From Actinoplanes italicus (lineage in GTDB: Bacteria > Actinomycetota > Actinomycetes > Mycobacteriales > Micromonosporaceae): a stretch of 64,000 nt of DNA. The stretch lies in the NCBI RefSeq assembly GCF_003001815.1, contig NZ_PVMZ01000003.1, positions 62,001 to 126,000 of the forward strand, in the 5' to 3' direction. Numbering within the stretch: position 1 is the first letter of the stretch; each line of letters begins with the position of its first letter. A program made the translations under genes and the position numbers. The notes below the pieces were generated by a model, which was given only the letters and a program-made list of their open reading frames with translations, ran no database searches and had not been told where the DNA came from. Positions 60,663 through 64,000 of this stretch are shown here, piece after piece.

Positions 60663-60673
60663 TCGAAGGTCTG

Positions 60674-60746
60674 CTCCCCGAATTGGACTCGAACCAATAA
60701 CCTGCCGGTTAACAGCCGGCTGCTCTGCCAATTGAGCTATCGGGGA
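60674..60746 (-). tRNA. tRNA-Asn (anticodon GUU)
   Basis: A complete 73-base cloverleaf: acceptor TCCCCGA/TCGGGGA, D-arm GCTCAATTGGCAGAGC, anticodon arm GCCGGCTGTTAACCGGC with GTT, T-arm GGTTCGAGTCC. No CCA is encoded; discriminator base G. Confidence 0.97.
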
Positions 60747-61459: not shown

Positions 61460-61939
61460 CTACTCGGGTACGGCGAGCAGAGTGCTCAGGTCCTTGGCCA
61501 GGTGGTAGATGTCGTGCGGGGCGAATCCCAGCGTCACATGCAGGTTCGCCGGAGGGAGCCCGGTCTGTTCCCGGAGCGCCTGGATCTCGGGGGAATCGGC
61601 GACAATGTAGTAGGTGACCGCCGGTCCGTCCCGCACCGAGCCGATGCCCAGCAGGTGTACGGTCAGCGGCCCGCCGTGCCGGATGATGTCCGTCCAGGCG
61701 CGGTCGACCTCTCCGTGGAACAGCGGGGGAGGGACGGCGGTCAGATGGAAACTGTCCGCGCCGTCACGCCGGGCCTTGCATGCGGCCAGTTCTGCGGCCG
61801 CATCCGCTCCGACATGCCGGGCCAGCGCCGCCAGAAAGGGTTCGGCCACCGTGGGCGGGATCGGCGCACCGGCATAGCGCAGTCCGTCCAGGTCGTGCAG
61901 TTCGGTCAGCCGGACCTCGATCGTCGTCTCGCGTTTCAT
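61460..61939 (-). CDS. 2H phosphoesterase family protein
   Basis: A 159-residue protein with the two His-x-Thr motifs that define 2H phosphoesterases: H65-L-T67 in DSFHLTAVPPP and H134-V-T136 in LHVTLGFAPHD. Members open or form 2',3'-cyclic or 2',5' phosphodiester bonds in RNA or small nucleotides. It is coupled to the hydrolase upstream: its ATG overlaps that stop by 4 bases (ATGA). The frame is open further upstream, but only across that gene. The biological substrate is unknown. Confidence 0.8.
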   Translation of the reverse strand: MKRETTIEVRLTELHDLDGLRYAGAPIPPTVAEPFLAALARHVGADAAAELAACKARRDGADSFHLTAVPPPLFHGEVDRAWTDIIRHGGPLTVHLLGIGSVRDGPAVTYYIVADSPEIQALREQTGLPPANLHVTLGFAPHDIYHLAKDLSTLLAVPE

Positions 61940-63282
61940 GCTTCGAATACCCAGTAGGGCGATGCCGGGCCTCGCCGCAGTCCGGGTCGTTTCTCGGGTG
62001 GGTGGCCCAGCCGTACCAATGATTCGATGTCGTCGAGGAAGCGCTGGTTCTGAGCGAACGTCGAGTGGTTGAGCAGATCGCCGGGAATGTTGCTGGCGTC
62101 GATGGTGTCGACGGTGGCGGCCGGTGTCGCCTGCGGCGTGGTCTGGCCGGCACGCAGGTTGCCGGACAGCCACTCCGACAGTTGCAAGGCTCGGTCGCGA
62201 GCCGAGGCATAGACCGTGCACCGGGCGGCGAGCGCGGCGAACACGGCCGCGCGTCGCTTGAACATCTGCTCGGAAACGTCGGGCGCCACCATGACCACAT
62301 GCCCGAGTCGTGGATTCTGGGTCCGGCCGAGCAGCTGGAGCGCCTCCACCAGCACGTGATTGCCCATGCTGTGGGCGATCACGTGGATGCGGCGCGGGCC
62401 GAGCCGGGCGATGACCGACTCGAGGAACGTGACCAGGTGGTCGACGCTTGCGTAGGCGTTCTCCCGGTCCGCGACGTAGCCCGGGGTCATTCCCTTGGAC
62501 GGCCAGCTGTAGAGCATCGGTATGCCGAGGAAGTTGATGTCGTAGGCGAGTTGAGCAGCGCGGCGGACGGCGTCGGTGAATGTCACGTTGTAGCCGTGCA
62601 CGAAGAGCAGGACGTCGCGCTGGTCCGCCACGTCGGCGGGCCCGGGGGGCCCGGCATCCGGCAGTGCCAGCCGGGGATCCGCGAAGAAGGCGGTCTCGTC
62701 CAGAGGGTCGCCGCCGATCACCTCGACGAATCGTCGCGGGTTGAAGCCGAGGTGCCACAACCGGGGCTTCGGCAGCCGTCCCCGGCGCCGGCGGTCCGGG
62801 ATACTCACCCTCAGCACGCCGAATGACAGCTCGTCCGCGGCCTCGCCGGTGTAGTAGCCGCCGCCGTCGCGATCGCCGGCCACCGGAGCGGGCCGCCGGT
62901 CGGTGGCGTAGAACACCGGCACCTCGAGGTACCGATGATTGCGGACACTGCCGGCAGGCCCGGTGGTCTCGGTGCCGCGGGTGTCGCGGGTGTCGGTCAG
63001 CGCCTCCGTCCACAGCCGGTTCAGTCGTCGAGCCGCTTCCGGGTACGGCTTGAACACCTTCGGCAGGTCGCGGACGGCATCGTCGAGGTCGGCCTGAGCG
63101 AGGTCGGCCGCTTCGTCGTCGACGGCGTCAGCCAGGTCGGCCTCGGCTGCCGAGATCCGGCGCAGCCCATCCAGGACCGCGCTCTCGAAGGCCTCCCAGT
63201 CGCCGGTCACCAGTGCCGGGAGTTCGGGCCAGAGCCGCGCGACCGCGGTCGTCAGCGTTTGTTCCTTCTCGGGATCGGACAC
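61936..63282 (-). CDS. Alpha/beta hydrolase of the DUF900 type
   Basis: A 448-residue protein. The catalytic half from about 118 has the DUF900 signatures VPVFYATDRR, LLFVHGYNVTF, PMLYSWPSKG and the nucleophile S305 in VIAHSMGNHV, with DASNIPGDLLNHS near the C-terminus as the likely acid/His region. The first 115 residues are a helical, acidic domain with no match. No signal peptide. It is the first gene of a coupled pair with the 2H phosphoesterase, and is transcribed away from the partial gene at 63399. Confidence 0.82.
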   Translation of the reverse strand: MSDPEKEQTLTTAVARLWPELPALVTGDWEAFESAVLDGLRRISAAEADLADAVDDEAADLAQADLDDAVRDLPKVFKPYPEAARRLNRLWTEALTDTRDTRGTETTGPAGSVRNHRYLEVPVFYATDRRPAPVAGDRDGGGYYTGEAADELSFGVLRVSIPDRRRRGRLPKPRLWHLGFNPRRFVEVIGGDPLDETAFFADPRLALPDAGPPGPADVADQRDVLLFVHGYNVTFTDAVRRAAQLAYDINFLGIPMLYSWPSKGMTPGYVADRENAYASVDHLVTFLESVIARLGPRRIHVIAHSMGNHVLVEALQLLGRTQNPRLGHVVMVAPDVSEQMFKRRAAVFAALAARCTVYASARDRALQLSEWLSGNLRAGQTTPQATPAATVDTIDASNIPGDLLNHSTFAQNQRFLDDIESLVRLGHPPEKRPGLRRGPASPYWVFEA

Positions 63283-63398
63283 GGTGAACCTCTCGCCGGG
63301 GCTCCCGATTCTGGCATGTCAGCACTGTGGACAGCACGTGGAACGCCTCCACCGTTCGAACGATCGAATTGTTCGGGGACGCGAAAGACAATCGTCCG

Positions 63399-64000
63399 AT
63401 GGGCGCTTCCGGGAAGTGGGAACCGACGCCTGAGGTGCGACGGGTCCTTGCGCGTGACGATCTTCTGCTTCTTGCCCGCGAGGTGGAGACCGCGGTGGGT
63501 GTGGTGAATGCCAGCAAGGCGAGAGAGAAACCGGTCTATCGTGACGAGTCCGCTCTGTTCTCCGCCGCCCTGGGTATGCATCTGGACAGCGCGTCCGCCA
63601 CCGATGATCTTTCTATCAAGATTGATTCCCTGGGTGCTGCCTGTGTCATCGCACTTTTCTCGCGATTGACCGAAATCGACCTGGAGTGGTCAACGGAATC
63701 CGACTCCACGGCGCGGTTCGGGCCGGCACTGCTGCGGGAGCTGGCCGATGTCCGCGAGACCCGGGCGGGCGAGGAGATCGACGGCGACGTCTATACCGCC
63801 GTCATCGCGCGGCGGCGGGCCATCCGCGAGATCCGGTGCGACGGCGACCTCACGACGGCGGCAGACGAGGCCGACCGCGACGACCGGGAGTTCGCCGGCG
63901 TCGGGGCTGATCACCACCGGGCGGAGTACCAGGTCGAGTTGATGTTCGCCCTCCTGCTCGACGGCCGGGCCGGGGATGCCCGCGAACGTCTCGCCGGGTC
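63399..64000 (+). CDS. Unknown protein, partial at the window end
   Basis: An open frame runs from the ATG at 63399 to the window end (200 codons). MGASGKWEPTPEVRRVLARDDLLLLAREVE begins a largely helical, acidic protein; no family is recognised. Codon choice and third-position GC fit a real gene, although GC is slightly lower than average in the first 250 bases. The C-terminal part in view (VELMFALLLDGRAGDARERLAG) looks like the start of a TPR or helical repeat. It is divergent from the DUF900 hydrolase, with about 115 bases between them. Confidence 0.65.
   Translation, partial: MGASGKWEPTPEVRRVLARDDLLLLAREVETAVGVVNASKAREKPVYRDESALFSAALGMHLDSASATDDLSIKIDSLGAACVIALFSRLTEIDLEWSTESDSTARFGPALLRELADVRETRAGEEIDGDVYTAVIARRRAIREIRCDGDLTTAADEADRDDREFAGVGADHHRAEYQVELMFALLLDGRAGDARERLAG

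Follow-up and report, generated by a model that had tools for sequence, protein, structure and literature searches.

The window, a 64,000-nucleotide stretch of the 11.15-Mb genome of Actinoplanes italicus (G000:C3:62001-126000), ends inside a group of genes whose remainder lies in the source contig. On the minus strand, the gene for a 159-residue 2H phosphoesterase (61460–61939) follows that of a 448-residue alpha/beta hydrolase (61936–63282). The two overlap in an ATGA, so the translational coupling proposed in the preliminary description is present in the sequence. The 2H protein matches the 2H-SAK family of Pfam (PF22547, E 4e-13, 50.1 bits, cut-off 27) and contains two H-x-T motifs, H65-L-T and H134-V-T, the 2H superfamily being defined by two H-x-S/T motifs. 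A sequence search against solved structures returned no match for it. A tRNA-Asn gene (60673–60746) is located less than 1 kb to the left of the 2H gene, with its 3′ end facing away from the module.

The hydrolase belongs to the DUF900 family (PF05990, E 2e-46, 158.6 bits, cut-off 20.5, residues 220–414). Its nucleophile motif, AHSMG at residues 303–307, aligns with 11 homologues, as do the columns of the D and H motifs. The solved-structure search gave three weak alpha/beta-hydrolase matches (E 0.02–0.09), and a search of viral contigs yielded nothing useful. The N-terminal part of the protein (residues 1–114; 62941–63282, minus strand), originally described as an unmatched domain of 115 residues, has no Pfam match even at E 10. 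It is common to a hydrolase of Streptomyces canus, whose counterpart shows only three Pfam matches, all below the cut-off (E 0.05–0.13). A profile built from these two sequences found no convincing third member in 79 DNA sequences (next best E 1.1).

A divergent intergenic region of 116 bases (63283–63398; 115 in the earlier count), which contains an imperfect palindrome at 63341–63374, separates the hydrolase gene from a gene on the plus strand. As had been noted, the window end cuts this side of the locus: the divergent gene occupies 63399–64000 and runs on to a stop at window-equivalent position 65699. In the source contig (L003:2328-4700) it encodes 790 residues from an in-frame GTG at 63327, or 766 from the ATG at 63399, near which two homologues in the same genome also start. 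Its product had been described as an unrecognised helical protein. This description fits the N-terminal part only; with the sequence beyond the window included, the whole product is a CHAT protease (PF12770 at the C-terminus, E 7e-11, 42.5 bits, cut-off 24), and the notion of an orphan helical protein was rejected. The catalytic-type His–Cys pair of the CHAT domain, His645 and Cys681 in the 766-residue product, is kept in all 11 aligned family members. The N-terminal region has no TPR match in Pfam at E 0.1. In a structure model of the homologue from locus L053, N-terminal helical repeats are well modeled, while the C-terminal half is poor (mean 51.9). A Foldseek search with this model returned only matches weaker than E 0.001, Rap, LGN, and Sec17 among them, and the solved-structure sequence search gave two chance-level matches (E 0.3–0.7).

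Wholly beyond the window, a convergent gene (window-equivalent 65701–67073, minus strand) has a stop abutting that of the CHAT gene. It encodes a protein of 457 residues from the preferred start, or 490 from the first start codon, with no NCBIfam match, no accepted Pfam match (one below the cut-off, E 0.06), and no match in the solved-structure sequence search. We describe it as helical from a predicted model of its L052 homologue (mean pLDDT 65.8); the structure models are weak, resting on four sequences. With the helical model, Foldseek found only helical-repeat proteins, none at E 0.001 or better, and VIA reached a best Z of 9.8, within the usual range for helical repeats. Many other chains matched too, among them some from the Csx29 complex 8gu6 (Z 7.3) and the separase complex 9hn0 (Z 6.7); we do not take this likeness as evidence.

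Further to the right, the contig encodes a protein with an MgtE_N domain (L003:6316-7131), unmatched at E 1e-20 in the 10 other genomes searched, 6 of them of the same genus, and an Hsp70-like protein (L003:7299-9299) which by eye has an apparent transmembrane segment and a C-terminal extension. No MoxR, vWA, VMAP, or CATRA gene was recognized beside the window copy, either in the eight frames scanned against Pfam up to about 15 kb to the right of the CHAT start or in the frame list read to the left. No PADLOC model fits any of the four core proteins.

Conservation of the CHAT gene and its partner

The preliminary description raised the possibility of a three-gene system and proposed that the co-occurrence of the three families be checked. 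A conserved three-gene system is not borne out. At E 1e-6, the 2H protein occurs in 1 of 298 genomes of the order and the hydrolase likewise in 1, and the Pfam families 2H-SAK and DUF900 each occur in 1 of 366 genomes of the phylum; in every case the genome is that of A. italicus itself, which has no second copy of either gene. Since no other genome in these searches yielded the 2H gene, its co-occurrence with the others could not be demonstrated. As neither protein is found in other genomes of the order at that threshold, the 2H–hydrolase pair was rejected as a conserved core.

The CHAT gene has its conserved partner instead in the helical protein gene outside the window, and by sequence comparison these two form the conserved core. 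Profiles of the full-length CHAT protein and of the helical protein match an identical set of 5 genomes among the 298 of the order, and each of the seven full-length CHAT matches adjoins a helical gene. With the query genome left out (4 of 297), the chance of identical sets is about 3e-9, relatedness being ignored. Ten further order genomes have partial matches to the CHAT domain only (E 8e-11 to 2e-18). Among 35 other genomes of the same genus there is no full-length CHAT protein, and 2 have weak partial matches (E 4e-6 and 6e-6). Because the order searches score only 3 to 12 candidates per genome, these counts of absence are approximate. The A. italicus genome itself holds two further full-length CHAT homologues (on C8 and C2), which removes the concern that the divergent gene might be an unrelated single-copy protein, and four further helical copies (one on C2, two on C8, and one on C22). 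A scan of contigs from 84,980 species with two peptide patterns, which gives a lower bound, added at least four CHAT loci (L051–L054), all with a helical protein. Plasmids searched for the CHAT and helical proteins gave no match.

We compared the neighborhoods of 11 CHAT loci (the window, C8, C2, G061, G299, G302 (L057), G206 (L059), and L051–L054), with genes called by a simple composition rule and selected frames scanned against Pfam. A MoxR-like AAA gene together with a gene in the vWA position is present at five of them (C8, C2, L051, L052, and L054); VWA_CoxE was recognized in all four whose frame was scanned (C8, C2, L051, and L052), and at L054 the position is taken by a frame of 430 codons. 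Both C8 and C2 combine MoxR-like AAA, VWA_CoxE, CHAT, and helical genes with a caspase C14 gene; at C2 (L021:12476-16988), a caspase gene is followed by a 276-residue frame with no Pfam match and then by a second gene with a caspase domain. CATRA genes (CASPASE and TPR Repeat-Associated; PF20269, PF20270, and PF20271) are found at four loci (G299, L052, L053, and L054), three of which (L052, L053, and L054) also encode CATASP, and at L052 and L054 the CATRA and CATASP genes lie between the CHAT and helical genes. G061 showed nothing recognizable beyond a CHAT gene and two helical genes, the second of which has an in-frame TGA within its match.

Alpha/beta hydrolases recur at four of the 11 loci: DUF900 in the window and LCAT/PGAP1-like enzymes at L051, G302, and G206. 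At L051 and G302 the hydrolase gene lies upstream of, and overlaps, a long helical frame, and at G206 an LCAT-like hydrolase and the helical domain are parts of a single protein of 961 residues. The helical domain also occurs apart from CHAT: on C22, where no CHAT gene lies beside it, it forms the C-terminus of a 1597-residue protein encoded next to an AAA gene and a trypsin–VMAP-C gene. Pfam gives no match at E 0.01 for the rest of this protein, which may, from its position, be the vWA component.

The CHAT gene lies tail-to-tail with another gene of the module at 10 of the 11 loci, the partner being the helical gene in eight and CATRA in two. The stops abut, overlap by 8–24 bases, or lie 31 bases apart (L003:4700/4701; L020:8821-8844; L051:12314-12334; L052:12316/12317; L053:12306-12313; L054:12316-12328; L055:9312-9335; L056:10035-10042; L057:11091-11123; L059:4131-4138). 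It is unusual for a convergent overlap to be conserved in this way. The modules of L051, L053, L056, and L057, from several species in two families, lie by eye within a few kilobases of a similar murB-like gene, which suggests a common site of insertion or inheritance from long ago.

This distribution bears on whether the module could be developmental, that is, a protease-based switch that governs differentiation in a filamentous actinomycete rather than an anti-phage device. Kaur et al. 2020 (PMC7159879) place systems of this kind mainly in multicellular bacteria, which would suit such a role. One would expect a gene for development to be widely conserved, and the patchy spread of full-length CHAT described above (5 of 298 order genomes, none of the 35 other genomes of the genus) therefore counts against it; we regard this explanation as very improbable.

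DUF900 hydrolases beside CHAT proteases

DUF900 is also linked to CHAT independently of the window locus, by both neighborhood and fusion as judged from gene order and domain content. Among the 20 plasmid relatives of the hydrolase listed out of 440 records, the top-ranked one is encoded on a Streptomyces canus plasmid. It is 37–40% identical to the window hydrolase (37% over almost the whole length), with an alignment that begins at residue 5 and includes the N-terminal part. A TPR-S/CHAT gene diverges from the S. canus gene at a distance of 141 bases and is the only one annotated as CHAT among the 107 features of the plasmid, whose gene table is incomplete. The S. canus CHAT protein has no significant match to that of the window and is of a different CHAT type. 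A protein of 646 residues from Nostoc sp. HK-01 contains both CHAT (E 5e-9) and DUF900 (E 2e-43), and its gene is followed by VMAP-M14/VMAP-C and AAA genes. Two Sulfitobacter plasmids carry caspase and CHAT genes near DUF900. The original interpretation is partly supported: a hydrolase and a nucleotide-acting enzyme with a divergent partner do lie in a defense-like setting, and of the families in the proposed co-occurrence check, DUF900 and CHAT recur together. A literature search on the CHAT domain with DUF900 found no paper in the collection searched.

The wider family is more varied. The DUF900 relatives on plasmids are mostly proteobacterial, and share the catalytic core and motif columns with the window hydrolase. 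Of the 440 records, which are mostly from Rhizobium and Sinorhizobium, we read 11 plasmid loci (the ten top-ranked and the thirteenth of the 20 listed). CHAT or caspase genes lie within 4–6 kb at four of the 11 and are absent from seven, raw counts from incomplete gene tables. Because of these seven, the DUF900 family as such is not tied to CHAT. Several relatives look exported or like lipoproteins by eye, whereas the N-terminal part of the window hydrolase, shared with the CHAT-linked Streptomyces protein, has no visible leader. A division into cytoplasmic CHAT-linked and exported unlinked proteins (5 of 5 versus 0 of 7, Fisher) was considered and dropped because both CHAT-linked Sulfitobacter proteins, which belong to a different setting, begin with apparent signal peptides by eye.

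These data can be weighed against the view that CHAT and the helical protein are a real conflict module, while the 2H–DUF900 operon is an unrelated two-gene cassette, acquired separately and possibly involved in lipid or RNA-end metabolism. The two families look acquired, since each is confined to 1 of 366 phylum genomes. Among the genes called and scanned at the remaining 10 core loci, none was recognized as DUF900 or 2H, and the seven plasmid loci lacking CHAT or caspase point the same way. This view fits poorly with the S. canus relative, which shares both the N-terminal part and the divergent layout with a CHAT gene, with the existence of a DUF900–CHAT fusion, and with the presence of another alpha/beta hydrolase at 3 of the 10 other core loci. 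We consider separate acquisition somewhat unlikely, and hold with moderate confidence that CHAT and the hydrolase act together.

Translational coupling suggests that the 2H gene also belongs to the module, a weaker link than that between CHAT and the hydrolase. Plasmid relatives of the 2H protein are found in 11 Vibrio records (31–33% identity). The one neighborhood read, on a V. campbellii plasmid, lacks CHAT; there the relative (L063:4986-5438) lies among hypothetical genes about 5 kb from a site-specific integrase. Weak, unannotated relatives occur in three records of uncultured large phages of more than 600 kb (24–31% identity, best E 4e-9). A literature search on 2H-SAK or Swiss Army Knife with 2H phosphoesterase found no paper in the collection searched. 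Iyer et al. 2017 (PMC5512222) give 2′,3′-cyclic and 2′-5′ phosphate bonds as the targets of 2H enzymes, and propose these enzymes as counters to nucleotide-signal immunity. On that basis the 2H enzyme could be an off-switch or antidote that degrades an activating nucleotide signal, with the hydrolase and CHAT as the effector arm, and co-translation with an effector would suit a regulator. This reading is improbable in our estimation: neither a cyclase nor a sensor of nucleotides was recognized in the frames scanned around the locus, nor a 2H gene at the other core loci.

A putative protease-gated hydrolase and its relation to known systems

With the divergent gene identified as the start of a CHAT protease, the locus can be read as a variant of self-defense that couples a protease to a lipid-cutting enzyme. 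We give about an even chance to the proposal that it is a satellite variant of the MoxR–vWA/CATRA-type conflict systems found in multicellular bacteria, in which the CHAT protease controls a lipase-like effector and a 2H enzyme has been added. The CHAT protease, with its N-terminal helical-repeat (TPR-like) region, would act as sensor and switch. Once triggered, it might cleave, or be released from, its partner, which could be the convergent helical-repeat protein, the linker of the hydrolase, or both. The freed DUF900 hydrolase would then attack membrane lipids or acyl esters, so that the infected cell would stop growing or die. The 2H phosphoesterase, translated together with the hydrolase, may take part in the same response by destroying a nucleotide signal or by opening 2′,3′-cyclic or 2′-5′ phosphate bonds in RNA.

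A more detailed version, which we consider unlikely, envisages a caspase-to-lipase death pathway. Here the helical-repeat CHAT protein would cleave a helical gate protein of a new family and thereby release a DUF900 phospholipase, with the 2H enzyme as a second, nucleotide-directed effector or as a signal eraser. The helical domain would then partner CHAT proteases in general and be exchanged among free-standing forms and forms fused to a hydrolase or to VMAP. The analysis thus offers a functional hypothesis for two unnamed protein parts, the helical CHAT partner of about 457 residues and the N-terminal part of the DUF900 protein, and ties DUF900 hydrolases to CHAT proteases by neighborhood and fusion. 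If the favored proposal is correct, a small gene set would constitute a protease-gated lipase branch of bacterial programmed death, parallel to the control of other effectors by CHAT.

Csx30 is the substrate of the Craspase TPR-CHAT, and the helical CHAT partner at the window locus invites comparison with it. In Craspase, the type III-E CRISPR complex of gRAMP (Cas7-11) with TPR-CHAT, the protease serves an immune complex as an output that can be switched (PMC9729208). The window locus differs in that no CRISPR genes were noticed among its annotated neighbors and that the profile of its CHAT family has no convincing match to any solved chain.

Likeness to CATRA systems lies in the four sister CHAT–helical loci that carry CATRA, three of them with CATASP, and in a CHAT protein with a helical-repeat N-terminus. 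These systems were reportedly defined in a 2020 paper by Burroughs and Aravind. The window locus differs from them: no CATASP gene was recognized there, and Pfam revealed no CATRA-N/CATRA-C protein adjoining the protease among its neighbors.

Another close comparison is with the MoxR–vWA and VMAP systems. Kaur et al. 2020 (PMC7159879) state that a VMAP system with a caspase-superfamily domain always has a neighboring alpha/beta-hydrolase gene, and suggest that caspase and hydrolase act together; CHAT, CATRA, DUF900, and 2H phosphoesterase are absent as terms from the main text of that article. A caspase-superfamily protease is likewise paired with an alpha/beta hydrolase at the window locus, homologues of its CHAT protein elsewhere in the genome are accompanied by MoxR-like AAA, vWA, and caspase, and a VMAP locus encodes a protein to which the helical domain is fused. 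Differences are that MoxR AAA and vWA in cis, as in the MoxR–vWA ternary system, were not recognized in the eight right-hand frames and the frame lists, nor was VMAP, that the protease is a CHAT protein, and that a 2H gene has been added. The pairing of caspase and hydrolase is thus already published, and the locus is a further variant of it. It fits the pattern of Kaur et al. with CHAT as the protease and DUF900 as the hydrolase, with a helical partner and a 2H gene besides, and with no MoxR–vWA found in cis.
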